64,000 nt of DNA from Acidobacteriota bacterium (lineage in GTDB: Bacteria > Acidobacteriota > Terriglobia > UBA7540): assembly GCA_902812415.1 (NCBI GenBank), contig CADDZJ010000003.1, positions 91,872 through 155,871 on the forward strand, written 5' to 3'. Both the position numbers and the translations under genes were made by a program. This document shows, piece after piece, positions 15,527 through 60,710 of this stretch (positions are counted from its first letter, which is position 1; every line of letters begins with the position of its first letter). The notes beneath the pieces were generated by a model that saw only the letters and a program-made list of their open reading frames with translations, was not told the DNA's origin and made no database searches.

Positions 15527-15541
15527 CCGAGCACGGCGCGC

Positions 15542-19157: not shown

Positions 19158-19166
19158 CCATTCACT

Positions 19167-19640
19167 CTACCAACTCGAATATGGCGTGCCATCCAGGCCC
19201 GTGCCGTTACTCTTGGAATACACGTCAAAGACATTTTCACCGCCCCACGAGGTCGAGTCCGGATCGTCCTGCATCGAGCGCAATCCCCAATCAGCCTGTC
19301 CCGTCATCGGATCGACGGGGATTTTACGCAAAAAGCGATAGCGAAGCTTTGAAGACCCTTTCACCGGGACGCCTTTTACGAGCGTTTCGAGATCGGGCGG
19401 GTAGCCAAACGTATCGGGCTGAACCGGAATCAGGCCCCGATCTGAGAAATCCTTATAGTGGTCAATGGCCGTTCGGATTTCGCGCAAGTCGCGCCGCAAC
19501 TCCACTTCTCTCAAATGCTGAGCGTGCATTTGCGCGAGCGGCAGAGCCACGCTGGCCAGAAGCGCCATGAGCGCCATGGTCACCACCAGTTCCAGCAGCG
19601 TAAAGCCGCGTTCGGCATTTTTCTCAATGCCTTCTTTCAA
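19167..19640 (-). CDS. gspG: GspG-type pseudopilin, TTG start overlapping the secretin stop
   Basis: 157 residues if translation begins at the TTG at 19640-19638. That codon overlaps the secretin stop (TTGA) and has AAGGAG exactly seven bases upstream (about 19648-19653). The leader is then a normal 12 residues (KEGIEKNAERG before the cleavage site). An ATG at 19721 would sit 85 bp inside the secretin gene and is rejected. The mature N-terminus FTLLELVVTMALMALLASVALP has Glu5. The head carries REIRTAIDHYKDFSDRG, the GspG signature IPVDPMTGQADWGLRS and a C-terminal DGTPYSSW. It is a major-pseudopilin candidate, paired with the next gene. Confidence 0.87.
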   Translation of the reverse strand: MKEGIEKNAERGFTLLELVVTMALMALLASVALPLAQMHAQHLREVELRRDLREIRTAIDHYKDFSDRGLIPVQPDTFGYPPDLETLVKGVPVKGSSKLRYRFLRKIPVDPMTGQADWGLRSMQDDPDSTSWGGENVFDVYSKSNGTGLDGTPYSSW

Positions 19641-25616: not shown

Positions 25617-26242
25617 CCGAGCAACTCCTTAAGGGCCTCTTCAGAAATAGGCCCATGGCGTAGGACGCGCGGATGATCCCCCGCCAGGTCTACCACGGTG
25701 GATGCCTCGTCGCTGCCGGTAGACCCTCCATCCAGTATGAGAGGCAGATGGCGGCCAATCTGCTCGTCCACCTCGGCAGCCGTCTTGCAAACGTGGTGAT
25801 CGGAAAGATTGGCGCTGGTTCCGGTCAGCGGCCTTCCTGCGGCCGCGATGAGCGCAACCGCCAGCGGCGCGCGCGGCCAGCGCAATCCAACATTGCCGGT
25901 GTTGCCGGTCACCTTGAGGGGGATGAGCTTTGAAGCAGGCACCACCAGCGTCAGCGGGCCGGGCCAGTACTTCTCGGCAAGTTCAAAGAAGAGGTGCGGA
26001 GGATCATTCGTGAGTTCAATGGCTTGGTCAATTGAACTCACCAGCAGCGGCAGCGGCCGGTTAAAGGCGCGCCCCTTGACGCGAAAAACCTCAGCCACGG
26101 CGGAAAGATTGAACGGATCCGCGCCTAAACCGTAAACCGTATCCGTTGGAAACGCCACCACTTTGCCATCGGTAATCAGCCGGGTGGCGCACTCCAAAAC
26201 GTATTCCAGTCTTGAGCCTTCAACTTTCAAAATCTCTGCCAT
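25613..26242 (-). CDS. tsaC: L-threonylcarbamoyladenylate synthase (TsaC/Sua5 family)
   Basis: 209 residues of the YrdC fold. It makes threonylcarbamoyl-AMP from threonine, bicarbonate and ATP, the first step of t6A modification at tRNA position 37. Visible motifs: VAFPTDTVYGLGADPFN, VKGRAFNRPLPLLV (the Lys-Arg binding region), WPGPLTLVVPA, VGLRWPRAP, and the conserved TGTSANLS. The C-terminal Sua5 domain is absent, as in short TsaC proteins. It overlaps the DUF218 gene by four bases, so the two are translationally coupled. Confidence 0.93.
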   Translation of the reverse strand: MAEILKVEGSRLEYVLECATRLITDGKVVAFPTDTVYGLGADPFNLSAVAEVFRVKGRAFNRPLPLLVSSIDQAIELTNDPPHLFFELAEKYWPGPLTLVVPASKLIPLKVTGNTGNVGLRWPRAPLAVALIAAAGRPLTGTSANLSDHHVCKTAAEVDEQIGRHLPLILDGGSTGSDEASTVVDLAGDHPRVLRHGPISEEALKELLG

Positions 26243-26401
26243 AAAGCTTTACCGTTCGCCAATTTGCGCGTGGCGCTGACCGTAGCACAGGCCGGAATTC
26301 GCGTCAAGCCGATATCCCTGAAGATACCACTCGGAGGGGGCAGCATCGGCAAATTTCTTGCCGACGCCGTAGCCCGAAACGATGTGAACAATTCGGATGA
26401 G

Positions 26402-29032
26402 TTATTGGCTGGAGAGAAACAATTGCTGGAAGCCGAGCGCATTCACATCCGTGAAACGTGGAGTGCCGGGGGGAAGGTCAGAAATGTTTTGAAAATCTGC
26501 ATCAAAGCTATAACCGCGAGTCGGCGGGCTATAAACGGTAGTGCAGCACTTGAATACTCCGGTTGCCTGACGGGAATAGTAGAAATCTGCAATGGAACCC
26601 TTGTAGTAAAGCGTCTGGCCACCCCAGTTTTCGAGCATACGCAAGAAGTTATGCACGCCGCCGTCGGTGCCAAAGTCCTGCGAAATAGAGTAACCATAAA
26701 TCGGACTTGTCCCTCCCGATTGAAATGTCTGAAAAGGCACGTTGGTGCCCCCCATCACAGCGGTACGGTAGTAGGTAGTCGATGCAGGGCGGTTGCCGGG
26801 GTTGGTAGGCGAAGTAAAGCTTTCAAGGTCTGTCCAGCTATTGGAAAGCAGCGTGACGGCGTCTCCCATCACTGCAGACGGAACATGGCAAGCGCCCGGA
26901 ATATCGCTAAATGATGAGCCTCCGGCTGGCGCGGCATTATAATCACCGAGGAGATAAACAGGATTTTCCGCCGCGACAGTGAATCCTCCTGAGCCGTTTG
27001 ACCCTTCAGGCGTCGAACAGTTTGCCACATTCAAAGGAGGCAGATTCCCCAGTGTTCCATCCATCAAACGCAAGGCGCGCCGGAAGAAGATAACGGGATT
27101 TTTTTCAGCCTGCCCGGCCGAGAGCGTGGTTCTGGGAGTAGCGGTGGGACCGAGTGGCGCAATACTCTGGCAAGGATAGAGCGGAGAAGTGGCGCTGGCG
27201 CATGAGGGTTTCGCGCCATAGGTATCAAACGAATCCTGGTTCCAATTGCTTGTGCCCGCGTTGGCTCCGTCCACGTCTTCGGGAGCTTCCATCGCGCCAT
27301 CCGGAGCGCCGGTAGGCGAAGCAGGGTTCACAATATCCTCGTTGCCGAACATGCCCGTTTCTCCGACCCCAGGAGCAAAGTTACCCCGCCGGTCCGAAAA
27401 ATAAACGATATAACCTCCGTTATTCAGCGCCATCGTTCCGCTGCTGCCGAACTGTCCGGCAAACCAGCGCTGAAGATTCGCAACATCCAATTCAACAACG
27501 CTCATCACTCCATTGAGGTAAATATTTCCATCATTGACGTCGCGTAAACTTCCCTCGCGGGTGTCGTACATGTTGATCGGGACGTAATCATAGGGGTTCA
27601 GGCTGCCCACCGGGTTTGTGACACACGGACCTGACTTCGCACCAGGAGTCAAGCCCGGATTAGGATTGCAGTTATAACGATTGGGCTCTTCCAGATGAAC
27701 AATAGGATGGTTTGTGCACGAAAGAGGCAAAGTGCTATTGGCCGTGATGCCCTGTTTAAGGATTTCTGTGGTCACATTTTGCCAGGCGCCAGAACTTACT
27801 TGAATATCGATCTCAATGTATCCGCCAATCAGAGATATATTCGCAGGAATCAGAAAATCATTGTCCTGTTCAAGGATGGCGCGCAGCGGCTTACCCTTAA
27901 ACGTCGGTACTGAGCCGGGAGACAGCGCGAGAGGCGCATGGCAAGGGTCCACTGTATACCAGGTAATCGGGAACGCTGTGTTCAGCGAAACCGCGCCCGA
28001 GGGGTTCGGAAGACTGTTTGCACTATCCGAGAGAAGAATCCGCATGCTGGCCTGATTTTCCAGGCGGGCCTGCGCGAGCAACGGCGTATCTGCCCCTTGA
28101 GCGCGTTCAATAATCGAAATGGGGGCGGCGCCCTGAAAGGCGATGGCCATATTGAGCTGCTTAACGCCCGTGGCAGAAGTCTGAATATTCCCGTAATACG
28201 TGTTGAGCGAGAGCGCCTTCCAGCCAGAGTTAGGAGCGCTGCCCAGCCCTCCGGTCAGGCTGCCTTCGTTCCGGGCCAGGGGACGATAATTACCCGGCGT
28301 GGTCACCACATTGACGTTTCCATTGTAGCTGGCGGAGGTTGTCCAGCCATTCGAGAGCTGCGCCCGAATCACATTCTGGTAGGCGGTTACCTTCGAAGGG
28401 AGCGTCAAGTTGCTGCCATCGCCCTCAGCCAGATAAAGATTACCGTTGGTGGCTACGCGGCCACCGAAGCTGAAGTCAGGCCCCGCAAAAAAGGAGAGGT
28501 CATTGTTCGAGAAGATGCCAAATTCAAAGATAGGCACCGCAACTTCCTGAATCTCCCGCACCAGTTTAACCTCGGTGTTGTCGGCGCCTTCCGCAATGGC
28601 CGTCAAGGTGAAGTGGGTAATCGCGCCCTGCAGTCCCGCCAGTGGACCGCTGCCTCCAATCGTGCCGGAGGTCGATAAGAGGCCTCCGTTGGAGTTAGTC
28701 TGATAGCCGATGTAATAACCGCCTGAAGGAAACTGGCCGCCGGCTGGCGGGAAAATCACGCCTGGAATAGCCGGCGGCTGGGTATCTAAAGCATTGATCT
28801 GCGCAGGCGTCGGCGAGGCGGTATGAGAAAAAAGCGTGTCGATCTGCGCGCTCATGTTCTCCAGCGCTCCCTCAGCCCCATAGAAAGCCACCGAATTATC
28901 CACTCCGCTCGCCACCGTCTTCTGTTCATCCATCACCATATAGATGAACCCGGCCGCTGCAAGCGAAAAAATGGTGAGCGTCAACAACGTGACGATCAAG
29001 GCGATCCCGGATTGTTTTCTGCGGCTTGGCAT
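26402..29032 (-). CDS. Very large PilX-type minor pilin-associated protein (876 aa)
   Basis: Last gene of the left minor-pilin set. The N-terminus is a PilX-like signal, short basic MPSRRKQSG then IALIVTLLTLTIFSLAAAGFIYMVMDEQ, which keeps the IAL pattern but lacks Glu5. Most PilX proteins are under 200 residues; this one has about 840 beyond the helix. The large region is Gly/Ser/Asn-rich, with a FGGRVATNGNLYLAEGD-type section, a WFAGQFG...YIVYFSDRRGNFAPG section and a cysteine-poor C-terminal domain ending QQLFLSSQ. I recognise no known adhesin fold. AGGGGA precedes the ATG. It may carry the surface-binding role usually held by PilY1, which is not encoded here. Confidence 0.78.
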   Translation of the reverse strand: MPSRRKQSGIALIVTLLTLTIFSLAAAGFIYMVMDEQKTVASGVDNSVAFYGAEGALENMSAQIDTLFSHTASPTPAQINALDTQPPAIPGVIFPPAGGQFPSGGYYIGYQTNSNGGLLSTSGTIGGSGPLAGLQGAITHFTLTAIAEGADNTEVKLVREIQEVAVPIFEFGIFSNNDLSFFAGPDFSFGGRVATNGNLYLAEGDGSNLTLPSKVTAYQNVIRAQLSNGWTTSASYNGNVNVVTTPGNYRPLARNEGSLTGGLGSAPNSGWKALSLNTYYGNIQTSATGVKQLNMAIAFQGAAPISIIERAQGADTPLLAQARLENQASMRILLSDSANSLPNPSGAVSLNTAFPITWYTVDPCHAPLALSPGSVPTFKGKPLRAILEQDNDFLIPANISLIGGYIEIDIQVSSGAWQNVTTEILKQGITANSTLPLSCTNHPIVHLEEPNRYNCNPNPGLTPGAKSGPCVTNPVGSLNPYDYVPINMYDTREGSLRDVNDGNIYLNGVMSVVELDVANLQRWFAGQFGSSGTMALNNGGYIVYFSDRRGNFAPGVGETGMFGNEDIVNPASPTGAPDGAMEAPEDVDGANAGTSNWNQDSFDTYGAKPSCASATSPLYPCQSIAPLGPTATPRTTLSAGQAEKNPVIFFRRALRLMDGTLGNLPPLNVANCSTPEGSNGSGGFTVAAENPVYLLGDYNAAPAGGSSFSDIPGACHVPSAVMGDAVTLLSNSWTDLESFTSPTNPGNRPASTTYYRTAVMGGTNVPFQTFQSGGTSPIYGYSISQDFGTDGGVHNFLRMLENWGGQTLYYKGSIADFYYSRQATGVFKCCTTVYSPPTRGYSFDADFQNISDLPPGTPRFTDVNALGFQQLFLSSQ

Positions 29033-29090
29033 GACGTTTTCCCCTCATATGGCTCCCGCCCTCAGCGGCTCTCGGCGCGTCGGAACGTTT

Positions 29091-30260
29091 TTAATATTTA
29101 TCTACATACTCCAGGTTACGAAGCGTAATCGCTGAAGCAACTGAGTTGCTGTAATACTGGCGACTTCTCCGCAAGGCGTGGCTTGATATTCCGGAGATCC
29201 ACAGATTCACCTTGCTGATCTGGTTCGGATTGGGCGGGCTTGGCAGGTTGGTATTCCCCGCCCCTCCCGTCGACAGATCATAGGTGAATTGCAGGTTATC
29301 AATTCCGTAAGCGACAGGATTGGGCGCACTGTTGTCCAGTTCGCGCATCAACGTGTATGGATGCGCCGGATTCGAGTTATCGAGATAATAGGTGATCATG
29401 TCCACTTTAGTCAGCGTCACCGGAGGATACCTTCCTCCAGACTGCAAACTGTCAATGGTTCCGCCGCACCCTGGCGCGCCAGCACACACCTGATCCAGAC
29501 CAAGCGGGTCTGACACGAAATAAAGAATGTTGCTGTTCGTATCGACTTGAGTCACCATTCCCAGAGCGTAGCCCGCACTGCTCGAAAACATCATCAGGTC
29601 GCCGACATTCACGTTATAAGCGCCTCCGGGCGCCATCGTGCAGTTTTGAGTGCAGGTTGGAGGTCCCGGGACGTTAACGCTGACGGTATAGCCGCTGGAT
29701 GAAGACGATGTGATATTCGCCACGGGCAGATTCTGGGAAATCCAGCGCTCATCTGTCGTAAGGATGGTCACCTCATCAGAAAGTTTGCCGTTGATGAATC
29801 CACTCAAGCCCTGACCCGGCGTGATCACGGAAAGAACAATGCCGCCGCTGCCATTGCCGGTGGAGGGAAAAACCGTCTTGCCGGGTCCCGGGCGTTTCAC
29901 GCTCGTGATGCCGTTCATGCTGGGTATCGGAACTCCTCCAATGGGAATCGAAGTCCCAGCCGCGTAAAAATCACGCGCGATCAGGTCTGCGGAAGCGCGC
30001 AGATTTTCATTGACCTCCGACATGGCGGAAACGCTTTCCGTCATGCTCTGAAGATCATTCAAGAAGCCGAAAGCCACACCCAGTAAAACGACGGTGAGGG
30101 CCAGCGCCACCAGCACTTCGATAAGAGCCATGCCTTGATCTGACGCCCAATGCGGCTTGGGCAACCCTGCCCTGTGACAGGCGCCTGATCGGCAAAGCAG
30201 CGTTGACCGCGGAAGTGAGAATCTCTGTTCCATCTGTAGCTTCGTCAACTGATCAGACAT
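29091..30260 (-). CDS. PilW-type minor pilin (left set)
   Basis: 389 residues. The prepilin signal G|MALIEVLVALALTVVLLGVAFGFL has Glu5, preceded by a long leader of about 43 residues from the ATG at 30260. The leader begins MSDQLTKLQMEQRF and is partly Cys- and Arg-rich. The stalk (SMTESVSAMSEVNENLRASADLIARDFYAAG) matches PilW. The large beta-rich head ends with a PilW-like segment (VDMITYYLDNSNPAHPYTLMRELD..., VAYGIDNLQFTYDL, ISKVNLWISGISSH). Its start overlaps the PilV-type stop by eight bases. It is part of the tip or priming complex of a type IV filament. Confidence 0.83.
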   Translation of the reverse strand: MSDQLTKLQMEQRFSLPRSTLLCRSGACHRAGLPKPHWASDQGMALIEVLVALALTVVLLGVAFGFLNDLQSMTESVSAMSEVNENLRASADLIARDFYAAGTSIPIGGVPIPSMNGITSVKRPGPGKTVFPSTGNGSGGIVLSVITPGQGLSGFINGKLSDEVTILTTDERWISQNLPVANITSSSSSGYTVSVNVPGPPTCTQNCTMAPGGAYNVNVGDLMMFSSSAGYALGMVTQVDTNSNILYFVSDPLGLDQVCAGAPGCGGTIDSLQSGGRYPPVTLTKVDMITYYLDNSNPAHPYTLMRELDNSAPNPVAYGIDNLQFTYDLSTGGAGNTNLPSPPNPNQISKVNLWISGISSHALRRSRQYYSNSVASAITLRNLEYVDKY

Positions 30261-30762
30261 AAGGGGAGATGTAGCAATTCAATTGATAGCTTCCTGTCAC
30301 ATTTGTGGGCGTCAGATAAGTGATCGTGATGGTGATTTGTTTTAAGACGTTGCTGATCGTCGTGATTTTGATCTCTCGCTTATACCCATTCAGTGGGACG
30401 GCCACGCCGTCCGAAAGCATGCCGTCCGGCCCTGGCATGATGATGGTTTCCACCGGTCCGTCGTCGGCTGTATTAACCATGCCATCGCTGCCGGGACTCG
30501 TAAGAGGTTGGGGACCATCAAGAAAAATGCCGCCATTGCTGATGTTGTTAATCTGATTCCAAGTGAGTGTTTCATTGTTTCGCGCCGTGAGCACATCTTC
30601 CATGGCCTCTCGGGCTTTCTGACGAGCAAGCGCCTCCTGCTGACAGGACATGACAACGGTCATGCCCTGACCATACATATAGGCCAAACTCAGGAGACCA
30701 ACGGTCAGGATGACTCCTGAAATCATGACCTCGATCAATCCGAAACCACGTTCGCTGTTCAT
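30253..30762 (-). CDS. PilV-type minor pilin (left set)
   Basis: 169 residues with a very short leader: MNSERG|FGLIEVMISGVILTVGLLSLAYMYGQ, Glu5 present, followed by the stalk CQQEALARQKAREAMEDVLTARN characteristic of PilV. The head is small and ends YQLNCYISPYV. The gene is second in the left set, 51 bp after the FimT/GspH-type gene, and its end overlaps the PilW-type start. It is expected to help initiate filament assembly. Confidence 0.85.
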   Translation of the reverse strand: MNSERGFGLIEVMISGVILTVGLLSLAYMYGQGMTVVMSCQQEALARQKAREAMEDVLTARNNETLTWNQINNISNGGIFLDGPQPLTSPGSDGMVNTADDGPVETIIMPGPDGMLSDGVAVPLNGYKREIKITTISNVLKQITITITYLTPTNVTGSYQLNCYISPYV

Positions 30763-30813
30763 GGCAACGAGCCTCCTCTCCTCACCTGCGATAGCCTTTC
30801 CCCGTTCGGATGT

Positions 30814-31392
30814 TCAAAACCAACGGGTTCCGTTATAGCTGTACCCTTTGATTCTCGCCGTGGCGCCCATTACAGTTACTGCCCTCGCGGCCGACGGCTT
30901 GCCTAGGATGCCCATGAAAACCGTTCCATTCACCAACCGTCCCATCCCATCCGTCGCAGTATCATCCCCCAGGAAGATCACCGTATTCCCGCCCGCAAAA
31001 TTAACAGGAAGTCCGTTTCCAAACCCGTCCGGCGTATCGGGTACCGTGGGAAACACCGTATAGATCACTCCCTGGCTGAGAAAGTTATCCGCGATCGGTG
31101 TGAGCGCCCCGTCCAGTTCTTGCCTCACAACGGTGATCTCATTGGCGCCTTTGAAGGTGACGATGAAATTCCGCCGCTGGTCAATAGCTGCTTGCCTGGC
31201 CTGGCGAAGCTGCGCCACAACCAGTTCAACGGAATTATCGGCGCGGACGCCGGGAAGAATATCCGTGACAATTTCGGTCGCCATTCCTGTCGCAATTGCG
31301 AGAATGAGAATGACTACCAAAATCTCAATCAGGCTGAATCCAGTCTCACTGCGCTTCAACTGCGCTTGATTTGGGGCAATTGGGCCACTCAT
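30814..31392 (-). CDS. FimT/GspH-type minor pseudopilin (left set)
   Basis: 192 residues from the ATG at 31392; a TTG start at 31434 is possible but unsupported. The leader MSGPIAPNQAQLKRSETG precedes FSLIEILVVILILAIATGMATEIV with Glu5. The stalk is followed by the GspH hallmark LVVAQLRQARQAAIDQRRNFIVTFKGANEITV. The head includes a GFGNGLPVNFAGGNTVIFLGDDTATDGMGR section and ends IKGYSYNGTRWF. It is the first gene of the left set and opens directly onto the 785-bp divergent control region. Confidence 0.85.
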   Translation of the reverse strand: MSGPIAPNQAQLKRSETGFSLIEILVVILILAIATGMATEIVTDILPGVRADNSVELVVAQLRQARQAAIDQRRNFIVTFKGANEITVVRQELDGALTPIADNFLSQGVIYTVFPTVPDTPDGFGNGLPVNFAGGNTVIFLGDDTATDGMGRLVNGTVFMGILGKPSAARAVTVMGATARIKGYSYNGTRWF

Positions 31393-32177
31393 CGGGCATT
31401 TCCCAGTTATTGAATATACAATCCTGAAGTTCAAAACTTTTTATCGGTATTTTGAAAAAAAAAATTAGCTCCTGCTTGACGGAAACTGCTAAGCCTGATA
31501 ACTTGTTAGTAAATAGGAACGCCTGGGTCTCCCTTTATAATGCAGGTTTGGGCGTGACTCTTTCCCCTCGGTTGAAGACGAAATCTCTGAATCGGCCGAG
31601 AAGAATCGTGCTCTTCATCAACTTGCAAAGGCCGCGTACCGTCTACCGCAACCATACGGCTTTCCTTGAACATTCTCTAACATGGACGCAGGCGAAACAG
31701 GCAAGGCATCTGGAAAGGCTCCCTGTCGGCAGCTTAAAGTCGGGCGGAAGCTTGCAGGAATTCAGGCTCCAGCAGCAGAAGCTTCGAGAACCCTTTTCAT
31801 CTTTTCCTGAGAAAGACTCAGAGTTGACTCAATGCGTGACGACAACAAAAAAAATGTTTAGGGTCGGTGAACGCAAGAAAATACCATCTTGCTGAAAGCA
31901 AGGATGTTATTGGCTTCTTATTGGCTTACCTTTGACCAATAATTTCAAAAATTTCTTGTATCTTAAAGAATCTAAATGACTTATGGATTTAATGTGTTCG
32001 TTTCTTGTAATTAAAAGAAAAGAAGGAACTTAACATAAAAATAGGGAAATTGTTCGTCGTCCGACGACATGAAATTAAAAAATAGCGACGCATCGTGACA
32101 TGCACGCTCTACCGAAGAAAAGGCTCTGAAATTGGGGAGTTCTCAGGTCAGAGCCGTCATCCGCCGATGGAGTCTAT
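31393..32177. promoter_or_regulatory. AT-rich divergent control region between the two minor-pilin sets
   Basis: 785 bp without a convincing gene. The part from about 31850 to 32100 is clearly more AT-rich than its surroundings. Features seen: a tandem TTATTGGCTT pair near 31908-31927; an exact 13-base dyad GTCGTCCGACGAC at 32056-32068; and a stem GGCTCTGA/TCAGAGCC at 32122-32155 in the presumed leader of the right set. A 147-residue plus-strand ORF starting at 31452 has no ribosome site and no family resemblance, and is rejected. Promoters for both sets must lie here, but I cannot fix -35/-10 or -24/-12 elements. Confidence 0.6.
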
Positions 32178-32852
32178 ATGGAAACCCCGGAGCAGGGTCA
32201 TGAAATTAAGAATCCGGGCATACAGATGGGATCGGAAAAGGTCTGCGGCTTTTCATTGATCGAACTGATCATCGGGGTGGCGGTGGCCGGCATTATAGCC
32301 GCCATGACAGTGCCGATGGCTCTCACCTCCCTGAAAGACTACCACCTGAATGCGGATGCCGCCAACCTCGCCAACTTCGCCAATGTGGCGAGGATGAAAG
32401 CGGCCTCGCAGTACGCTCCATACCGGCTGAATATCAGCACGACCAATGGGACTTTTACGATGGAAAGACTCTGCGGCGATACCCCTTCTTCCGTGGACAG
32501 CAACTGTTCCGGAGGACTGAATCCTTACAACCCATTCAGCACGCCCCAAATTGACCTTGGAACGCAATACGCAGCCCAGGGTGATGCGTATTCCAGTTGT
32601 CGGCCGAACGGCATTAGCGTGTTCCCCGGGGATATCACCGCCGACCCAGCGAACTGCCCCGCGCTTCTCCAGATTTACTTTAACACCCGCGGCGTGCCTG
32701 TTAACAGCAACGGCGGCCCACTCACCAACAGCGGCGCAGTCGTCTATATCACAAACCCGGATAATCTCGTGGACGCCGTAACTTTTTCCCTGGGCGGGCG
32801 AGTTGCGGTATGGACCTGGAATTCCGGCACATCCCAATGGGTGATGAGGTAG
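32178..32852 (+). CDS. FimT/GspH-type minor pseudopilin (right set)
   Basis: 224 residues. A leader of about 24 residues (METPEQGHEIKNPG...KVCG) precedes FSLIELIIGVAVAGIIAAMTVPMAL with Glu5. The stalk and first strand (DAANLANFANVARMKAASQYAPYRLNI) match GspH/FimT. The head carries two cysteine pairs (RLCGDTPSS, DSNCSGG, SSCRPNG, ANCPALLQIYF) and ends GRVAVWTWNSGTSQWVMR. First gene of the rightward set; the PilV-type start follows 5 bp after its stop. It is clearly different in sequence from its left-set counterpart, so the sets are not a recent duplication. Confidence 0.85.
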   Translation: METPEQGHEIKNPGIQMGSEKVCGFSLIELIIGVAVAGIIAAMTVPMALTSLKDYHLNADAANLANFANVARMKAASQYAPYRLNISTTNGTFTMERLCGDTPSSVDSNCSGGLNPYNPFSTPQIDLGTQYAAQGDAYSSCRPNGISVFPGDITADPANCPALLQIYFNTRGVPVNSNGGPLTNSGAVVYITNPDNLVDAVTFSLGGRVAVWTWNSGTSQWVMR

Positions 32853-32856
32853 AAGA

Positions 32857-33588
32857 ATGAACCCAGCCGGCGAGAATCGCAACCGCGTCATTCGGATTGC
32901 AGCGCGGGACCGCAAAAGAAAGAGCCTGGGGCCGACAGTTGGAAAGAAACTAGAGCTTTCTGAAATGATCCGCCACTCTTCACTCATCACTCGTCACTGG
33001 CATGATGATCGCGGCCTGAGCCTGATTGAAACCATGGTTGCGGTGCTGATCGCTTTGTTCGCAGTTTTCAGCCTGGGAGCCATCATTTTCACCGCTTCGG
33101 TGACCGGCAAAAATCAGGGCTCCGAAGTGACTCGGGCCACCATTTACGCGCAGGATAAGATGGAAAAGCTGCTTTCCCTTGGCGCGCAGACCCAGACTCC
33201 GGTTAATCCTCCTGACTTTTCGAGTTGCACCAAACCCGCGTCCTCACAACCGTCTCAGTGCAACACCACCGGAATTACAGGAAGCAGTTGGGCAACCGGA
33301 TTGCTAGCGGGCGGCTCGATCAGCGCCACAACGCCCAGTTGTTCCTCTGTAAGCCCTGGTTATGCTGACTTTCTGGACGTTAATGGAATTCAGCTTACGG
33401 GAGGCGGTTGCGCAAGCTTCTCTAACATTGCCTATATCCGCGAGTGGCAGATTACGGACCTTGTTTCTCCCACCGGCGGGCCAGCCATGAAACAAATCAC
33501 GGTTGCCGTTTTTGCGTTAAGCGCCGAGAACCCGGTAGGCGGCCAGCCGATTATCGTTCTGACCAGCGTGCTGTCTAATCCCAATTAG
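32857..33588 (+). CDS. PilV-type minor pilin with long leader (right set)
   Basis: 243 residues. GAGGT lies just upstream of the ATG at 32857, right after the previous stop, so this start is supported. It gives a leader of about 53 residues before G|LSLIETMVAVLIALFAVFSLGAII. The end of the leader (MIRHSSLITRHWHDD) comes from a micro-repeated tract (CACTCTTCACTCATCACTCG), and Met37 at 32965 is an alternative start. The mature part has the PilV stalk (NQGSEVTRATIYAQDKMEKLLSLG), several cysteines and ends GQPIIVLTSVLSNPN. Tip or priming component. Confidence 0.82.
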   Translation: MNPAGENRNRVIRIAARDRKRKSLGPTVGKKLELSEMIRHSSLITRHWHDDRGLSLIETMVAVLIALFAVFSLGAIIFTASVTGKNQGSEVTRATIYAQDKMEKLLSLGAQTQTPVNPPDFSSCTKPASSQPSQCNTTGITGSSWATGLLAGGSISATTPSCSSVSPGYADFLDVNGIQLTGGGCASFSNIAYIREWQITDLVSPTGGPAMKQITVAVFALSAENPVGGQPIIVLTSVLSNPN

Positions 33589-33598
33589 AAGCGATGCC

Positions 33599-34591
33599 AT
33601 GAAGATACAACCTCAGATCAATTTAACCGCCGCTGTTGACGCAAGACATCGCGCCGAAATTGCGAAGGGCCTTCTCGGAAATCGCCCGTGGCAGTCATTC
33701 CCGCGCAAGCGGGAATCCATGAGCCAGACCTCCGCCGCCAGAAAGCGAGAACAGGAATCGATCCTCTCCACGGCTGGCTTTTCAATGCTGGAGCTGCTGG
33801 TCAGCGTTGCCATCATCACGTTGATTATGGGCGCGGTGTTCCAATTTATGGCCCAGGTTCAGAAGAGATACCAGGGCAATCAGGTAACCACCGAATCCAA
33901 TCAAAGCGCGCGCGCCGCCCTGGAGGTGATGACCCAGGAGATTGGCCAGGCGGGGTATAACTCAAATCCAAATCCCAATACCAGTCAGCCCGCTGAAAAT
34001 ACTTACCAACTTCCCTACGTCAACGGCATTCTCTATGATTCTTCACTCACCCAGTCGAACGATCACACGCTGGATTTTTATGGAGACATCAACAACGACG
34101 GGAACCAGGACTACGTGTCCTATAGTCTCTATGCGCCTTCGGGCGCGCCTTCGGTGACCATCAATGGGGTTCCATATACGCTTTACACGCTCTATCGCTC
34201 CTTCACTCAGCTTCCTACGACCACTCCCCCATTGCCGGCCGTCACGAGCCAGCCGGCCTATCCGATGGTGCAGAATGTTCTCTATAACATGGCCAACGGC
34301 AAAGGGCCATCGGGGCAACCCATCTTCAGTTTTTCCGGAACCAGCCAGATTTTGATCGTGCCGAACAACATCACGGTGGTGGGTACGGTGGTCATCAATC
34401 TTTGCGTGGCAGTGAACCCTGAGAGTCTGGAAACGGGCGCCGTGCAATGGTACACCATGGCTACCCAGATTCGGCCTGTGAATCTGGCGGCGGGAGCGGA
34501 AATCAATAACGAAAATGCCAGCGTCTATCTGCCAGCGCCTCTGGTGACCAATGCCAGCGCGATCACCATTCCACCCAACTATTATCAGTGA
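33599..34591 (+). CDS. PilW-type minor pilin with REP-derived leader (right set)
   Basis: 330 residues from ATG 33599; Met41 at 33719 is an equally good start and gives a normal 20-residue leader. Between them lies the exact 25-bp REP palindrome, translated as SFPRKRES. The mature N-terminus is FSMLELLVSVAIITLIMGAVFQF with Glu5, then the PilW stalk QVTTESNQSARAALEVMTQEIGQAGY. The head contains a DYVSYSLYAPSGAP section and ends with VINLCVAVNPESLETGAVQWYTM...QIRPVNL, resembling PilW heads. It is followed by the PilX-type gene after 3 bp. Confidence 0.82.
   Translation: MKIQPQINLTAAVDARHRAEIAKGLLGNRPWQSFPRKRESMSQTSAARKREQESILSTAGFSMLELLVSVAIITLIMGAVFQFMAQVQKRYQGNQVTTESNQSARAALEVMTQEIGQAGYNSNPNPNTSQPAENTYQLPYVNGILYDSSLTQSNDHTLDFYGDINNDGNQDYVSYSLYAPSGAPSVTINGVPYTLYTLYRSFTQLPTTTPPLPAVTSQPAYPMVQNVLYNMANGKGPSGQPIFSFSGTSQILIVPNNITVVGTVVINLCVAVNPESLETGAVQWYTMATQIRPVNLAAGAEINNENASVYLPAPLVTNASAITIPPNYYQ
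33694..33718. repeat. 25-bp REP-type palindrome, copy inside a prepilin leader
   Basis: It is the exact reverse complement of positions 3834-3858 (GTCATTCCCGC...GCGGGAATCC). It lies in frame within the PilW-type gene, upstream of the prepilin cleavage site. Confidence 0.8.
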
Positions 34592-34594
34592 GAA

Positions 34595-36373
34595 ATGGCT
34601 ATGAGCATGCGAACAAGACGGCAAATAAATCTTTACAACGCTAAAAAAAGTTTGGAGCGCCTCATTCGGAATGCAGCGCAGGCTGTGGCGGGCTTCCTGA
34701 CGCTTCGCAAGCCCGCTGTTGCCTTCACCCCTGTTGTCGCCAACAGGACGCTTGGCCGCTACCGCGCGCGGTGCAAGGAACGAGGCATTGCCTTGATCCT
34801 GGTGATGCTGGCCGTACTGGTGCTTTCAGTTCTCGTGGCCGGCATCGTTTTTTCCAGCCGCTCTGAAACCCTTGCCAGCTACAACTACAAACTCAATACC
34901 GAGGCGGACTACCTCGCCAAGGCCGGCATCCAGGAAGCGCTAAATTGGTTCCGAAGCCAGAACTATGTCGCGATGACCCAAAGCCAGGCGGCGCTCCGAT
35001 ATCAAGTGGGCGTGAACAGCGTCACTTGTATCCTGGGCTGTCCGGCAATTGGCCCTGTGCAGTTCATCACGTTTGGATCCGGACAGTCGAATTATCCGAA
35101 CAACGTGGTCAGCAACTCCTTCGCAAGTTCGCTTTCCAATGTCCGGGTAACAGGCGACGCCAACGACTCAGGCACGTTTTCTGTAAACGCTGTCCTGCTG
35201 AGCTATCAGTCCGTCAATGCAGCCCATTGCTCTCGATCCTGGGATCCCACACCTTGCCCGACTGAAACCTGGCTCATTACCTCGCAAGGAACCTGGACAG
35301 GCCGTTCAAGCTCTTCAGCAACAGTAGCCAAGGCTGTGGAGAGAGCCGTTGTCCAGACGTTATTTTCCGGCACGACGTCTTCCAGCTACACCTTTACAAA
35401 CGCAATCTACGCCTTGTGCTCGGTCACGATGAACGGCAGCGCGGGAACTTGCACCGACGCGTACGACTCCAAGAAAGGCCCCTATGGCGGGGGCTTGAAT
35501 CCTGCTGGAAACTGCGACTCGTCCTCTCCCAATATCATTGACACGGGCGCTTCCGTCGGCTCGAATGGAGGGGTAACTTTCACCGGAAATGTCACTGCGG
35601 GTGGGAACGTCATCATCGGGACGGGCGCTCCGGCAGGCTGCCCAACGGGCTATTCAGGTTCAGCCAAAAATGTTCTGGGGAAAGTCGTCACAGGGTCTCA
35701 GGTTGTTCCACCGCCCTTGTCACCGCCCTTCCCTCCTGCAAATTACTCTCAGTTTGCCTCAAACCCCGGTGCAGCGCCCAGCTATAGCACAACTACGACA
35801 TTGGGGTCAGGAGCAACCATCCCGTGCGCCTCCGGAGTCACCTGTAACGGAACATCGTCGAACCCTTATTTGATCAATAACATCAATATTTCGGGACAAA
35901 ATTCGATCACTTTGGTGGGGGGAACCTCCTCCTCACCGGCGGTCTATTACATTAACACTCTCTCTGAGTCCGGTCAGGCCCAGATTAACGTCACAGGGCC
36001 CGGCGGGCAGCCAGGTTACGTCATTCTGAATGTTCTAAGCACGTTTTCGATCACCGGCCAGGGTCTGGTGAGCAACTCCAACAACCTGCCAGCCCAGGTC
36101 ATCGTGAATGACAATTGCAACGGCTGTAATATTACCTTATCCGGAAACGGTGCCATCTCCGCCGTGGTCGACGCGCCAGGAGCCAACGTCACGCTAAGTG
36201 GCGGCGGCAGCAGCGGTTATTCCGTAGGAGCGATATTGGCCAATAACGTGACCATGAGCGGTGGCCGTCCTCTCCATTACGACACGGAGTTGGGCAATCT
36301 CTCCGTGGGCGGAGGACCCAGCGGCACGCTCAGCCCGCCACTCATCACCACCTACAGCCGGCAAAAGTTTTAG
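34595..36373 (+). CDS. Large PilX-type protein with beta-helix-like C-terminal region (right set)
   Basis: 592 residues; last gene of the right set. A leader of about 64 residues (containing the GCGGGCTT/AAGCCCGC palindrome around 34687-34716) precedes G|IALILVMLAVLVLSVLVAGIVFSS, again without Glu5, as in PilX. The PilX stalk (YNYKLNTEADYLAKAGIQEALNWF) is clear. From about residue 310 the sequence is a Gly/Asn/Ser-rich series of short strands (GVTFTGNVTAGGNVIIGTG, NNINISGQNSITLVGG, GNGAISAVVDAPGANVTLSGGG, YSVGAILANNVTMSGG), as in polymer-forming beta-helix domains found on PilX-like proteins. A surface-exposed tip or adhesive role is likely. Confidence 0.82.
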   Translation: MAMSMRTRRQINLYNAKKSLERLIRNAAQAVAGFLTLRKPAVAFTPVVANRTLGRYRARCKERGIALILVMLAVLVLSVLVAGIVFSSRSETLASYNYKLNTEADYLAKAGIQEALNWFRSQNYVAMTQSQAALRYQVGVNSVTCILGCPAIGPVQFITFGSGQSNYPNNVVSNSFASSLSNVRVTGDANDSGTFSVNAVLLSYQSVNAAHCSRSWDPTPCPTETWLITSQGTWTGRSSSSATVAKAVERAVVQTLFSGTTSSSYTFTNAIYALCSVTMNGSAGTCTDAYDSKKGPYGGGLNPAGNCDSSSPNIIDTGASVGSNGGVTFTGNVTAGGNVIIGTGAPAGCPTGYSGSAKNVLGKVVTGSQVVPPPLSPPFPPANYSQFASNPGAAPSYSTTTTLGSGATIPCASGVTCNGTSSNPYLINNINISGQNSITLVGGTSSSPAVYYINTLSESGQAQINVTGPGGQPGYVILNVLSTFSITGQGLVSNSNNLPAQVIVNDNCNGCNITLSGNGAISAVVDAPGANVTLSGGGSSGYSVGAILANNVTMSGGRPLHYDTELGNLSVGGGPSGTLSPPLITTYSRQKF

Positions 36374-36424
36374 TCGGTAGGGACGAATCCAGAGGGTTTT
36401 CTGCTACCGCTACGCAGAGAGTAG

Positions 36425-36463
36425 GGGTAGCTACGGTCAGGAAAACACTGACCGTGGCTACCC
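36425..36463. terminator. 16-bp hairpin downstream of the right minor-pilin set
   Basis: GGGTAGCTACGGTCAG pairs with CTGACCGTGGCTACCC (one mismatch) across a 7-base loop. It lies 51 bp past the PilX-type stop. It has no U-run, so it is a terminator candidate or a dispersed palindrome. Confidence 0.5.
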
Positions 36464-36573
36464 GTTACGACACGCTGAAGGTCACCGCGATTCTCAAACC
36501 ATAAAACGCACAACGGAGCCCGCTACGCGCCGATCCCGGCGCTTTTGCGCACCTCCTCCCGCTCCTATGCCGT

Positions 36574-36617
36574 GATTCCTCTCACCTGACGCCTTTACAC
36601 GTCAGGTGAGAGGAATC
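36574..36617. repeat. Perfect 17-bp hairpin in the convergent intergenic region
   Basis: GATTCCTCTCACCTGAC and its exact complement GTCAGGTGAGAGGAATC flank a 10-base loop. It lies between the converging PilX-type and TPR lipoprotein genes. The CACCTGAC string also appears in the micro-repeated leader at 19076-19107. The surrounding 36374-36779 gap holds no gene. Confidence 0.6.
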
Positions 36618-36703
36618 AGCCACACCGAAGCTTGCCAGCTTGAAATACTGCGCGCGACAAATCATCCCGAGCAACTCGACGCAAAATCAACTGTAGAAAC
36701 AGA

Positions 36704-36731
36704 AAAGCCTCGGTGATCATACCGAGGCTTT
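36704..36731 (-). terminator. Rho-independent terminator of the tgt-sec-tonB-TPR run
   Basis: AAAGCCTCGGT pairs perfectly with ACCGAGGCTTT across a 6-base loop. On the minus strand it is followed by TTCTGTTTC, giving a U-rich tail. It is 49 bp past the stop of the TPR lipoprotein gene. On the plus strand it may also stop readthrough from the pilin set. Confidence 0.75.
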
Positions 36732-36779
36732 CACAGGACTTCGATTTTTAAGACGTAAACGTTGTTCTAAGCGCGCAAG

Positions 36780-56472: not shown

Positions 56473-57687
56473 TTATCCTGCGCTGCCGGCCAGCTTTCCA
56501 ATCAGGCTGAAGAGCGGCAGATACATCGAGATCACCACTCCTCCGACCACCACGCCGAGGAACAAAATAATGATCGGTTCCATGGCTGTCAGCAGATCGG
56601 CCACAGCGGCGTCAACCTCGTCTTCGTAAAAGTCCGCAATCTTCTGGAGCATGGCGTCGAGCGCTCCGGTCTGTTCGCCCACGCCGATCATCTGCACGAC
56701 CATATTGGGAAAAACTTCGGTCGCCTTGAGAGGATCGACGATGGTCTGCCCTCCCTCGACCTCTTTGCGGACATCCAGAATGGCTTTCTCAATCACTGCG
56801 TTGCCGGAAGAGCGCGCCGTAATATCCATCGCCTCGAGCATCGGAACGCCGCTGGTGATCAAAGTGCCGAGGGTGCGCGTGAAGCGCGCCACGGCGATCT
56901 TTCTCATCAGCATCCCGATGACGGGAATCTTCAGAATGAACCGGTCAATTTTCATGCGGCCTTCAGGCGTTGCGTAATAGCGTTTCACCGCATAGACGGA
57001 AGCGCCCGCAGCTAGAATAACGATCCAGGCAAAATGCGCGACGGCATGGCTCAACGCGATGACGATGCGCGTGGGGAGGGGCAACTCCACTCCCAGCCCC
57101 ACAAACAGACTCGCAAAGATGGGAACCACTTTCCACAGCAGCAGGAAGATAACGCCCGCCGCGATAATGAGCACCGCCGCCGGATAAATCATCGCGGATT
57201 GCACCGCGCGTCTCAGCTTCACCGCTTTCTCGATGTAAGTGGACAAGCGGCGCAGGATGCCGTCCAGGATGCCGCCCGCCTCGCCCGCTTCCACCATGTT
57301 GGTATAGAGGTCGTCAAAGATTCTGGGAAACAGGCGCATGGAATTAGCCAGAGTTGAACCGCTCTCAACCGATCCGCGCACACGCCTCAGGGCCTCAGAG
57401 AAATGCTTATTCTGCTGTTGCGAGGCGAGAATTTCGAGGCACTGCACCAGGGGAAGGCCAGCATCAATCATCACGGAGAACTGGCGGGTGAAAATCGCCA
57501 GTTCCTTGGACTTGACCTTGCCGATTTTGGGCTGCGCTTCGCTTTCCGCCGCGCGAGTTTTTTCGACGGCTGGCTTTCCGGCTGCCGCCAAACGAAACGG
57601 CTTGGCCGTTCCACTGGGAGTCAAGACCCTGGCGCCTCCCTGCATCTGAGGCCTTCCGGAGGATTGAGGAAATTGCAACGTCGGCAT
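56473..57687 (-). CDS. pilC: Type IV pilus inner-membrane platform protein PilC
   Basis: 404 residues from the ATG at 57687, which has GAAGGAGC nine bases upstream; the frame extends to 57792 without a ribosome site. The first GspF domain (LAIFTRQFSVMIDAGLPLVQCLEILASQQ) ends in two helices (MIYPAAVLIIAAGVIFLLLWKVVPIF). The second (FTRTLGTLITSGVPMLEAMDIT, MIGVGEQTGALDAMLQKIADFYEDEVD) precedes the last helix (MEPIIILFLGVVVGGVVISMYLPLFSLIG). The N-terminal 60 residues are extra and Ala/Lys-rich. Last gene of pilB-pilT-pilC. Confidence 0.95.
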   Translation of the reverse strand: MPTLQFPQSSGRPQMQGGARVLTPSGTAKPFRLAAAGKPAVEKTRAAESEAQPKIGKVKSKELAIFTRQFSVMIDAGLPLVQCLEILASQQQNKHFSEALRRVRGSVESGSTLANSMRLFPRIFDDLYTNMVEAGEAGGILDGILRRLSTYIEKAVKLRRAVQSAMIYPAAVLIIAAGVIFLLLWKVVPIFASLFVGLGVELPLPTRIVIALSHAVAHFAWIVILAAGASVYAVKRYYATPEGRMKIDRFILKIPVIGMLMRKIAVARFTRTLGTLITSGVPMLEAMDITARSSGNAVIEKAILDVRKEVEGGQTIVDPLKATEVFPNMVVQMIGVGEQTGALDAMLQKIADFYEDEVDAAVADLLTAMEPIIILFLGVVVGGVVISMYLPLFSLIGKLAGSAG

Positions 57688-57799
57688 AATGAAAGCTCCT
57701 TCGAGCAGCCCTATCCCCAATGATGGATACCGGACTGCTTCAAGAATCCATTGACGCGCCGCCTCGCTGTGGGACAGGCGCGGCAAGTGCAAAAGCGCT

Positions 57800-58927
57800 T
57801 TAGCGTTTGCCCACCGGCGTCAGGACAGCCGGGCGGGCGCTTGCCGGAGCCTGAGCGCCGCGCTGAATCATGTCCAGAAGCTCCTCGGGAAGACCCGACC
57901 TTCCGAGGGCTGTTTCCTGCGTAATCAGGCCGCGCTGGTAAAGCAAATAAAGCGATTGGTTAAATGTCTGCATGCCGAATTTTTCCTGGCCCGACTGCAT
58001 CATGGAATAGATCTGGTGAACCTTGTCCTCACGGATCAAATTGCGAATCGCCGGATTGGGCGTCAGAATTTCCATCGCCATCACCCGGCCTTTGCCGTCC
58101 GCACGAGGCAAAAGCGCCTGGCATAAAATCCCTTCCAATACCAGCGAAAGCTGCGCCCGCACCTGCGACTGCTGGTGCGCGGGAAAAACATCGATGATGC
58201 GATTGATCGTGGAGGCGGCGGAATTGGTGTGCAAAGTTCCAAACGTCAGGTGGCCGGTTTCCGCGATGCGCAGAGCGGATTCAATCGTCTCCAGATCGCG
58301 CATTTCCCCGATCAACACCACGTCCGGATCTTCACGGAGCGCCGCCCTCAAGGCATTCGAGAACGAGTGAGTATCCGCATGCACCTCGCGCTGGTTTACC
58401 AGGCAGCGCTTGTGATTGTGAAGAAACTCGATCGGATCTTCGATGGTGATCATGTGCTCGTAGCGCGTTTCATTAATCAAATCGAGCATCGTCGCCAGGG
58501 TTGTGGATTTTCCGCTGCCCGTCGGGCCGGTCACCAGAATCAGGCCGCGCGGTTTCTGGCAGAGCTTGCGAAGCACCGGAGGAAGGCCCAGTTGCTCAAA
58601 GGTCCTGATCTCAAATGGAATCACTCGGAAAACGGCCGCCGTTGATCCGCGCTGGTTAAATAAATTGCCTCGGAAGCGGGCCAGGTCCCTGATTCCGAAA
58701 GAGAAGTCCAGTTCCAATGTTTCCTCAAAGCGATGTTTCTGCGTTTCGGTCAGCACGCTATAGGCAAGCTGTTTGGTCTCGGCAGGCCCCAGGGCCGGAA
58801 GGTCATCCAGAGGCTTCAATTCGCCATGGATGCGAATGCGCGGAGGGGAATTAGTGGTGATGTGAAGGTCGGAACCTCCCATCTCCACCAGGCGTTTCAG
58901 CAGATCACTCAGGGTTGGAAGCGGCAT
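57800..58927 (-). CDS. pilT: Pilus retraction ATPase PilT
   Basis: 375 residues. A PAS-like N-terminal part (LLKRLVEMGGSDLHITTNSPPRIRIHGEL) precedes the ATPase: GPTGSGKS at 134-141, ITIEDPIEFLHNH (Asp box), DPDVVLIGEMRDLETI (Walker B) and GHLTFGTLHTNSA (His box). The PilT-specific C-terminal AIRNLIREDKVHQIYSMMQSG motif, needed for retraction in characterised PilT proteins, is intact. AGGGAGA precedes the ATG. Its presence means the pilus is probably retractable. The gene follows pilB by 16 bp. Confidence 0.97.
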   Translation of the reverse strand: MPLPTLSDLLKRLVEMGGSDLHITTNSPPRIRIHGELKPLDDLPALGPAETKQLAYSVLTETQKHRFEETLELDFSFGIRDLARFRGNLFNQRGSTAAVFRVIPFEIRTFEQLGLPPVLRKLCQKPRGLILVTGPTGSGKSTTLATMLDLINETRYEHMITIEDPIEFLHNHKRCLVNQREVHADTHSFSNALRAALREDPDVVLIGEMRDLETIESALRIAETGHLTFGTLHTNSAASTINRIIDVFPAHQQSQVRAQLSLVLEGILCQALLPRADGKGRVMAMEILTPNPAIRNLIREDKVHQIYSMMQSGQEKFGMQTFNQSLYLLYQRGLITQETALGRSGLPEELLDMIQRGAQAPASARPAVLTPVGKR

Positions 58928-58943: not shown

Positions 58944-60710
58944 CTAAAGCACGGTCTCACGGATAACTTCCTCAAGCGTCGTCATGCCCGACTTGACCTT
59001 AATCAATCCGCTGCGACGCAACGTAATCATCCCCTGCTCGATGGCTTTTCGCTTCAATTCGAGCGCGGAAGCTCCCACCAGGATGAGATCACGAATTTCG
59101 TCGGTGATTTCCATCACTTCATAAAGGCCCACGCGCCCTTTGTAGCCTCGCCCGCCACACGTATTGCAACCTTTTCCCTTATATGGCATCGCGGTCCGGG
59201 CCTCTTCAGGCGTAAAACCAGCATCTATCAGAACCTGCGGGCTTGCCGGGTCTGGAATCTTGCAATCCGAGCAGATGCGGCGCACCAGGCGTTGAGCGCA
59301 AATGAGGTGAACCGAAGTTGCCACCAGAAAAGGCTCAATGCCCATATTCATCAGACGAGAGATCGTTGAAGGCGCATCGTTCGTGTGCAAAGTGGAAAGC
59401 ACCAGGTGGCCTGTGAGCGCTGCTTTGATCGCAATTTCCGCTGTCTCAAAATCGCGGATTTCGCCGACGAGAATAATATTGGGATCCTGGCGCAGGAAAG
59501 ACCTCAAGGCTGCGGCGAAATTCAGGCCGATTTGCTCCTTCATCTGAACCTGATTAATTCCGGGCAACTGAAACTCCACCGGGTCTTCAGCGGTCATGAT
59601 GTTGGTGTCTTCTTTATTAAGCTGGGCAATGGAAGAATAAAGCGTATTGGTCTTGCCGCTCCCCGTAGGTCCGGTTACGAGCACCATGCCATAGGGTTTG
59701 AAGATAGCCTTCTGAAACTTTTCCAGCGACTCAGGCTCAAAGCCGAGTTTCGTCATGTCGAGCCTCAGGTTTTCCTTATCCAGCAGGCGCATGACGATCT
59801 TTTCGCCATGCAGGGTCGGCAGCACAGAAACGCGCAGGTCGAGCTGCTTTCTCTTGCCTTGGTGCATCAACTTCAGCATAATGCGCCCATCCTGCGGCAA
59901 CCGCTTTTCTGCAATGTCGAGCCGGGCCATAATCTTGATGCGGCTGATGATGGCATCCCTGAGCTTGAGCGGCGGATTCATGACGGATTGCAGCAGGCCA
60001 TCAATGCGGTAACGGACACGATAGTCCTTCTCATAAGGCTCCAGGTGAATGTCGCTTGCACCGCGTTTTACCGCATCCATCAGAATGTAGTTCACCAGGC
60101 GGATGACGGGCGCTTCCTCAGCGGCTCTTTCAAGGTCCGCCAGGTTCAGCGTGCCTTCCTCGTCTTCATCCAGCTCCACGCTTTCGGCTGTGCCCTCGTC
60201 CAGGAAGCTTACCAGTTCGTCGATTTCCTTTTTCCGCGCAACATCTTCAGCCGTGCCGTAATGATTTTTGATCGCCTGATCGATTTCAGTTTCAGACGCC
60301 AGCACCGGTTCAATATGCAGTCCGGTGAGGAATTTCACATCGTCCAAAGCGAAAACGTTGGAAGGGTCGCTGATGGCCAGCGTCAGGGAGGAGCCGGTTC
60401 TCACCAGCGGCAGCACGTGATGCTTCGTCGCCATCTCCATAGGGATCAGCTTGACGACGGCAGGATCAACTGGAAATTCGCTGAGTTTGACCGAAGGAAT
60501 TCCGTATTGCGCAGCAAGCGCTTCCGTCACGTGTTCGTGGGTCAGAAAACCCAGATTCACCAGCGCTTCTCCCAGCTTTCCTCCGTGCGACCGTTGGTGT
60601 TCAAGCGCAAGTTGGAGCTGTTGAAGCGAAATCCGGCTTTCCCTCAGCAGAATCTCTCCCAGCCTGCCCGACATAGATTGCGCGCTCAGAGATACATTCT
60701 CGGTCAACAT
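58944..60710 (-). CDS. pilB: Pilus extension ATPase PilB
   Basis: 588 residues. Two GspE-N (MshEN) modules at the N-terminus, the first with SMSGRLGEILLRESRISLQQLQLALEHQR and the second around residues 55-155 (TEALAAQYGIPSVKLSEFPVDPAVVKLIP). Such modules bind cyclic di-GMP in some PilB/MshE proteins, so that control is possible here. The ATPase core has GPTGSGKT at 347-354, AEDPVEFQLPG, DPNIILVGEIRDFETAE, GHLVLSTLHTNDA, and a four-Cys zinc motif (CSDC, CNTC). First gene of pilB-pilT-pilC; the divergent gene starts 116 bp away. Confidence 0.96.
   Translation of the reverse strand: MLTENVSLSAQSMSGRLGEILLRESRISLQQLQLALEHQRSHGGKLGEALVNLGFLTHEHVTEALAAQYGIPSVKLSEFPVDPAVVKLIPMEMATKHHVLPLVRTGSSLTLAISDPSNVFALDDVKFLTGLHIEPVLASETEIDQAIKNHYGTAEDVARKKEIDELVSFLDEGTAESVELDEDEEGTLNLADLERAAEEAPVIRLVNYILMDAVKRGASDIHLEPYEKDYRVRYRIDGLLQSVMNPPLKLRDAIISRIKIMARLDIAEKRLPQDGRIMLKLMHQGKRKQLDLRVSVLPTLHGEKIVMRLLDKENLRLDMTKLGFEPESLEKFQKAIFKPYGMVLVTGPTGSGKTNTLYSSIAQLNKEDTNIMTAEDPVEFQLPGINQVQMKEQIGLNFAAALRSFLRQDPNIILVGEIRDFETAEIAIKAALTGHLVLSTLHTNDAPSTISRLMNMGIEPFLVATSVHLICAQRLVRRICSDCKIPDPASPQVLIDAGFTPEEARTAMPYKGKGCNTCGGRGYKGRVGLYEVMEITDEIRDLILVGASALELKRKAIEQGMITLRRSGLIKVKSGMTTLEEVIRETVL

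Follow-up and report, generated by a model that had tools for sequence, protein, structure and literature searches.

Why should a genome with one set of type IV pilus machinery carry two minor-pilin cassettes that face away from each other? The question is raised by a 64,000-nucleotide stretch of an Acidobacteriota genome (hereafter, the window), in which eight prepilin-type open reading frames (ORFs) form two four-gene sets—L on the minus strand and R on the plus strand—that diverge from the interval 31393–32177. Going outward, each set is ordered FimT/GspH, PilV, PilW and PilX, and the ORFs lie where an earlier sequence-only reading of this DNA had placed two complete sets of these four types (Table 1).

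Table 1. Genes of the two minor-pilin cassettes, the gap between them and the pilus machine encoded in the window (positions within the window).
Feature	Position	Strand	Evidence
L4, giant PilX-type pilin, 876 aa, without Glu5	26402..29032	-	PilX_N over cut-off
L3, PilW-type minor pilin	29091..30260	-	Pfam and NCBIfam matches
L2, PilV-type minor pilin	30253..30762	-	N_methyl 21.8 bits; PilV TIGR02523 E 3e-9, below cut-off
L1, FimT/GspH-type minor pilin, first L gene	30814..31392	-	ATG start; N_methyl 27.8 bits; GspH below cut-off
Gap separating L and R	31393..32177	.	785 bases; AT-rich at about 31900-32050; weak direct and inverted repeats
R1, FimT/GspH-type minor pilin, first R gene	32178..32852	+	N_methyl 22.1 bits
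R2, PilV-type minor pilin	32857..33588	+	every Pfam/NCBIfam match below cut-off
R3, PilW-type minor pilin	33599..34591	+	Pfam N_methyl below cut-off; NCBIfam match
R4, large PilX-type pilin, 592 aa, without Glu5	34595..36373	+	DUF7305 near C terminus
PilC-type platform protein, T4aP machine	56473..57792	-	clear PilC/GspF model matches, below cut-off
PilT-type retraction ATPase	57800..58927	-	NCBIfam over cut-off
PilB extension ATPase	58944..60710	-	NCBIfam over cut-off

In Pfam searches, L1–L4 and R1 scored over the cut-off for N_methyl or PilX_N; N_methyl in R2 and R3 and PilX_N in R4 fell below it, and R4 passed for DUF7305. The NCBIfam model IV_pilin_GFxxxE was over its cut-off in L1, L3, R1 and R3. 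None of the eight cassette proteins reached an NCBIfam equivalog cut-off, so the names FimT, PilV, PilW and PilX reflect gene order together with weak, mostly N-terminal matches. The reading frame of L1 stays open up to a TTG at 31434, which is the start used in the ORF list. Direct reading of the translations showed that Glu5 after the predicted cleavage site is present in the six small pilins and absent from both PilX types; in the aligned relatives, it was likewise found in 0/21 readable L4 rows (out of 22, one being truncated) and 0/21 R4 rows.

The two sets are not copies of each other in any recent sense. BLASTP comparison of the partners gave E values of 0.03 (L1–R1), 0.01 (L2–R2, the best) and 0.6 (L4–R4), with no match for L3–R3, and the similarity is short and weak, extending little past the prepilin N terminus. 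Together with the sizes of the PilX types (876 versus 592 aa), this agrees with the earlier statement that the partners differ strongly and do not stem from a fresh duplication, and a recent duplication of one set is thereby ruled out. Each giant PilX protein is a member of a broad family—624 proteins for L4 and 224 for R4 at E up to 0.001—which indicates that the pattern is not due to chance, and the cassette pair is real and probably old.

We then consider the machinery that these pilins could serve in their own genome, the assembly of which is 96% complete. The pilB-pilT-pilC core that had been proposed at 56–61 kb was recovered, with PilB and PilT over their NCBIfam cut-offs and PilC below. 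PilM and PilQ were over cut-off as well, and pilN, pilO and pilP were assigned from position alone. Two secretins were found, i.e., PilQ, encoded close to pilM on contig C1, and a second in an operon at 12–21 kb of the window (11904–21460, minus strand). The latter operon is T2SS-like and includes a TPR-bearing secretin and two GspG-like pilins; no GspH-I-J-K set of its own was found in it. A prepilin motif search of the genome (E up to 1) returned nine matches, corresponding to the six small L and R pilins, the two GspG-like pilins of the T2SS-like operon and one PilA-like pilin encoded on another contig, the match of which was below cut-off. No third minor-pilin set emerged from the searches of this genome. 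Since one type IVa pilus (T4aP) core set and one PilA-type pilin thus accompany two minor-pilin sets, the assignment of both sets to one pilus is the best reading. On the strength of sequence comparisons, we hold it somewhat probable that each of the two very different cassettes would provide its own initiation-and-tip complex, i.e., two tips for one type IVa pilus. Beside this machinery, a HAMP-PAS histidine kinase (61592–63826, plus strand) is encoded divergently from pilB, with one HhH-GPD DNA repair gene in between, and could act as a pilus regulator. Elsewhere in the window, a plus-strand gene (49225–50550) encodes a protein with a PEP-CTERM sorting motif.

If the two cassettes are alternatives, genomes with either one should be informative. 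Among 39 genomes of the family (PilX matches with E up to 1e-20; several genomes are incomplete), L occurred in 10, R in 20, both in two and neither in 11. Either set was thus present in 28 genomes and only one set in 26 of these; the single-set family genomes that fall within a draw of 151 genomes of the class all have pilM. As single-cassette genomes of either type possess pilM, one cassette seems to be enough. Four of the 'neither' genomes (G091, G107, G127 and G111) hold pilin clusters that matched only weakly, which suggests that further cassette types exist. Both sets are present in the genome of the window and in G070, from another genus, and lie head to head in each; the twin layout therefore recurs in a second genus. 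The flanks of the window locus are unlike those of the seven loci compared gene by gene, two of its own genus included, and the close species G035, G048 and G083 have flanks in common with each other.

The survey also took in 80 L loci of named genomes; upstream sequence amounted to 2.5 kb or more in 58 of them and downstream sequence in 67. A divergent second pilin cluster was found beside L in three of the 58 (L037, L074 and L013, the last read as the locus of G070), and L024, with 2.2 kb of upstream sequence present, is a fourth such locus. Tandem second clusters stand upstream of L in L051 and L084 and downstream of it in L048 and L084 (of the 67). The neighboring clusters in L024 and L084 are R-like, with 27–37% identity to the window proteins by tblastn; those in L037 and L074 gave weak matches. 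Cassette adjacency is hence recurrent, yet the majority of L cassettes are solitary. More than one cassette or PilX gene (two or three, from a single type or from both) was also present in G115 (L158, L187 and L188), G290 (L191 and L192), G117, G052 and L084.

This distribution bears on the possibility that both cassettes act jointly, either with eight pilins in one larger tip or with both sets needed under the same conditions. The side-by-side position of the sets in both family genomes that hold L and R, and the R-like set adjoining L in L024 and L084, would be in keeping with such a joint role. However, we judge it improbable in view of the 26/28 family genomes with one set only (several being incomplete) and of pilM in all of those within the class draw. 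The gene trees are relevant here, too. In the L4 tree, G070 and G087 (100/99) stand beside the window protein, G095, G296 and G012 (95/94); G070 groups with the window and G075 in the R1 tree (88/92), and with the window, G075 and four divergent rows in the R4 tree (91/96). Most simply read, the pair was already present in the ancestor shared by the window genome and G070, and one of its halves was retained in some descendants. Transfer instead of loss is possible when the L and R gene trees are read alone. If the loss scenario is right, each half is dispensable to the other, which fits alternative tips better than a joint one.

A related question is whether the cassettes follow the pilus or the secretion system. 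Taking PilX matches with E below 1e-50 as the mark of a strong carrier, 39 of the 151 class genomes qualified (L in 25, R in 16). All 39 have pilM, which is found in 90/151 class genomes overall; outside the window's own family, pilM accompanied 20/20 strong L carriers versus 64/125 genomes. The respective P values, 2e-11 and 3e-7, ignore relatedness. When any weak PilX match was counted, pilM was present in 72/76 genomes (absent from G015, G049, G066 and G137), and 18 of the 90 pilM-positive genomes had no match to either PilX profile. The secretin of the T2SS-like operon, by comparison, occurs in 149/151 class genomes, with or without L or R, so that the presence of the cassettes (strong L or R in 39/151) does not follow the T2SS-like system. 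Overall, it is the pilus with which the cassettes are associated.

These counts also weigh on the proposition that one cassette supplies the minor pseudopilins GspH-I-J-K to the T2SS-like operon, with the other serving the pilus—a reading that we regard as slightly more improbable than the joint tip. The operon, devoid of its own H-I-J-K set, lies 5 kb from L4, the order of the four cassette genes equals that of gspH-I-J-K, and weak matches link L1 to GspH (E 1e-8) and R4 to GspK (E 4e-4). However, the latter two reached 35 of 80 and 20 of 130 bits, respectively, and no GspH/I/J/K equivalog cut-off was attained by any cassette protein. Moreover, the near-universal secretin mostly occurs in genomes without strong L or R, from which it follows that the T2SS-like system does not need the cassettes, and G060 has an R match in the absence of a secretin match. 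The sequence-only reading would have fallen if one set had belonged to the T2SS-like operon only; the invariable presence of pilM in strong carriers and of the secretin regardless of them speaks otherwise.

Turning to the large PilX proteins, which would set the two tips apart, both L4 and R4 combine a pilin N terminus with a large extra part, the trait of modular type IV pilins. PilX_N spans residues 8–58 of 876 in L4 and, below cut-off, residues 63–112 of 592 in R4. The relatives are similarly large, with a median of 938 aa for L4 proteins (69 complete sequences) and 622 aa for R4 proteins (12). DUF7305 is found in 18 of 21 aligned proteins comprising R4 and its relatives. The HpsA model matches 22/22 aligned L4 relatives (best E 7e-17), far under its cut-off, and the match is located at the C terminus of the window protein. 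This C-terminal part is among the most conserved L4 regions in the alignment of relatives, a pattern that favors a structural or priming role, or an unchanging ligand, over a rapidly evolving adhesin. The predicted structures of L4 and R4 were poor (mean pLDDT of 57 and 56), a fold search with these models yielded nothing with E at or below 0.001, and no solved relative of either protein was found by sequence. The least probable of the alternatives holds that L has a polysaccharide-linked function like that of the cyanobacterial hps genes and R alone primes the pilus: the matches of all L4 relatives to HpsA and of L3 and R3 to HpsC, along with the strong conservation of the distal part of L4, lend it some color, but L4 scores 38 bits against an HpsA cut-off of 400, R3 (E 2e-8) fares better than L3 (E 3e-4) against HpsC—so that this match does not separate the sets—and family genomes with L and without R (G012, G087 and G095) keep pilM.

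With both cassettes placed on the pilus as putative alternative tips, the partner that one would expect next to them is PilY1, and its absence is the most interesting feature of the cassettes. The PilY1 profile PF05567 gave no match in the window's own genome and in 0/151 class genomes, in runs in which no control genome matched. In a draw across the phylum, 48/149 genomes matched, 39 of them over cut-off, so the profile does work in Acidobacteriota; it covers part of PilY1, and a divergent PilY1 could therefore be missed. L-type PilX (E up to 1e-20) was present in 27 of the same 149 genomes, with no overlap with the 48 PilY1 genomes where 8.7 would be expected (P of 7e-6 with genomes as units and 4e-5 with genera as units, neither corrected for relatedness). 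The families with PilY1 and those with L never overlap, and the exclusion may thus reflect few evolutionary events. We read 12 of the 48 PilY1 loci, chosen from among the strongest matches. In 11 of these, a small ORF of 141–349 aa occupies the PilX slot directly before PilY1 (1090–1369 aa) and behind the PilW and PilV slots, with weak PilX-slot profile matches of 13–37 bits; the remaining locus had no visible pilin. In other words, loci with PilY1 end their pilin series with a small protein, and the last pilin is large where the search revealed no PilY1. The length of the PilX proteins in the window (592 and 876 aa), set against 141–349 aa in these relatives, and the missing PilY1 lead us to predict the distal part as a PilY1 substitute; the large PilX part may have taken over the role of PilY1.

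A PilY1 hidden behind the giant PilX was considered and rejected. Among loci with at least 2.5 kb of downstream sequence (60 for L and 12 for R), a co-directional ORF of at least 500 aa begins within 500 bases of PilX in 4/60 L loci and 7/12 R loci; nine of these 11 candidates were scanned, and none is a PilY1. The two others are 81–85% identical to the scanned HtrA-type ORF of L153. The neighbors themselves deserve mention. In four of the 12 R loci (L152, L153, L155 and L157), a co-directional gene for an HtrA/DegP-type protease begins within 500 bases of R4. In three others (L158, L159 and L166), R4 is followed by a co-directional gene for a protein with a class III cyclase, TPRs and HD_5, a hint that the tip cassette may respond to a second messenger. 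On the L side, the window encodes a matrixin-type metalloprotease and a second protein (8374–10432, minus strand) 16 kb from L4, the metalloprotease matching weakly the myxosortase-dependent MXAN_2677/2678 family; in 9/80 L loci, homologs of the pair are encoded immediately downstream of L4 on the other strand.

How the choice between two tips would be made is a separate issue, and the claim that both sets are switched from one control region found no backing in the gap. No Rfam family was over threshold in the window, and a relaxed search gave six matches, all far below their thresholds. A strict sigma-70 scan of the gap found no site where 1.2 were expected; the relaxed scan, run without a shuffle control, gave ten weak sites, the best with 9 of 12. 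Two sigma-54 sites with 8 matches, compared with a mean of 0.57 in base shuffles, were rated as chance-level. As repeats, the gap contains an identical 10-base sequence at both 31907 and 31918, at a spacing of 11 bases, along with imperfect pairs, e.g., 31952–32032. Beyond one marginal 52-base match, the gap bears no resemblance to other loci, and the corresponding interval of G070 measures about 250 bases if the divergent ORFs are taken at full length. Invertible pilus-tip switches of the PilV shufflon type have alternatives flanked by inverted repeats. No good inverted repeat was found around the cassettes: the region 26000–36800 holds one 31-nt pair, 71% complementary, with its arms inside the coding sequences of L4 and R4, and an invertible switch was accordingly discarded. 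The 785-base gap can accommodate two independent promoters, and reciprocal expression of L and R is conceivable. Of the sequence-only reading, two different tip sets on a common core are supported—by two sets with one T4aP core and one PilA, by the tracking with pilM and by the twin in G070—and the shared switch is not.

The closest precedent is found in Myxococcus xanthus, for which the text available from PMC7541494 describes three FimU-PilV-PilW-PilX-PilY1 clusters operating with one PilA and one pilus; cluster 1 or cluster 3 alone suffices, PilY1 and the minor pilins prime the pilus and occupy its tip, and the PilX proteins also lack Glu5. The locus of the window resembles these clusters in its several minor-pilin sets per major pilin and machine and in the missing Glu5 of PilX. 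In PMC9109919, M. xanthus without HsfA, a protein of the HsfBA phosphorelay, shows a lower level of pilY1.1 and a higher one of pilY1.3, and accessorised tips are offered as a speculation; that the two clusters respond in opposite directions suggests that their tips can be exchanged. Sections of a 2026 study on myxobacteria (PMC13190605) discuss PilY1 classes and their pilin operons. According to these texts, it is already known that one pilus can have several minor-pilin sets and that two such sets can be regulated oppositely, and the cassettes can hardly be called an undescribed functional unit, as the sequence-only reading had proposed. In contrast to the Myxococcus clusters, each of which includes PilY1 in the text consulted, PilY1 was not found here, the PilX proteins are much larger, and the two sets stand head to head.

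Other comparisons are instructive as well. The 12 PilX-PilY1 loci of other Acidobacteriota have their pilin slots in the same order, whereas their small PilX is followed by PilY1 and the set of the window ends with the large one. PilB and PilC of Streptococcus sanguinis similarly join a pilin N terminus to a large part for which display at the tip has been proposed, as given in portions of PMC8179133 and PMC9934059; the vWA and lectin modules named there are replaced here by a DUF7305 or HpsA-like end with poor fold models. A 2025 review (PMC12288463, available in part) hypothesizes that the minor-pilin sets of Synechocystis form different tip complexes. As to the cyanobacterial hps genes, the HpsA and HpsC models match L4, L3 and R3 weakly and far below the family cut-offs. 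Of the traits of a T4aP priming cassette, the locus displays the four-gene order, the Glu5 pattern and the presence of a core machine and a major pilin in the genome; a PilY1 partner was found neither there nor in the 151 class genomes. Our literature search on Acidobacteriota and pilins returned no paper on this subject, judging by title and abstract.

Taken together, the FimT-, PilV- and PilW-type pilins of each cassette would form a short bundle that starts the filament, and the PilX-type pilin encoded by the last gene, without Glu5, would come to lie at its very end. There, the distal part of the giant PilX would stand in for PilY1 as a tip contact or priming domain, and the cell would be able to fit either of two tips to a single pilus machine. 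In this scheme, we infer pilus assembly, tip position, an adhesive or priming role of the large domains and alternative rather than joint use. A wider version appears doubtful: the whole class may have given up PilY1 and moved the tip function into the giant PilX, with the cassettes as an interchangeable pool and the old pair as a two-position selector. A T4aP lineage without detectable PilY1, and with an enlarged PilX in the adjacent slot, would make it possible to test both the necessity of PilY1 and whether a pilin can replace it—and the cassette pair would be a natural tip-exchange experiment.
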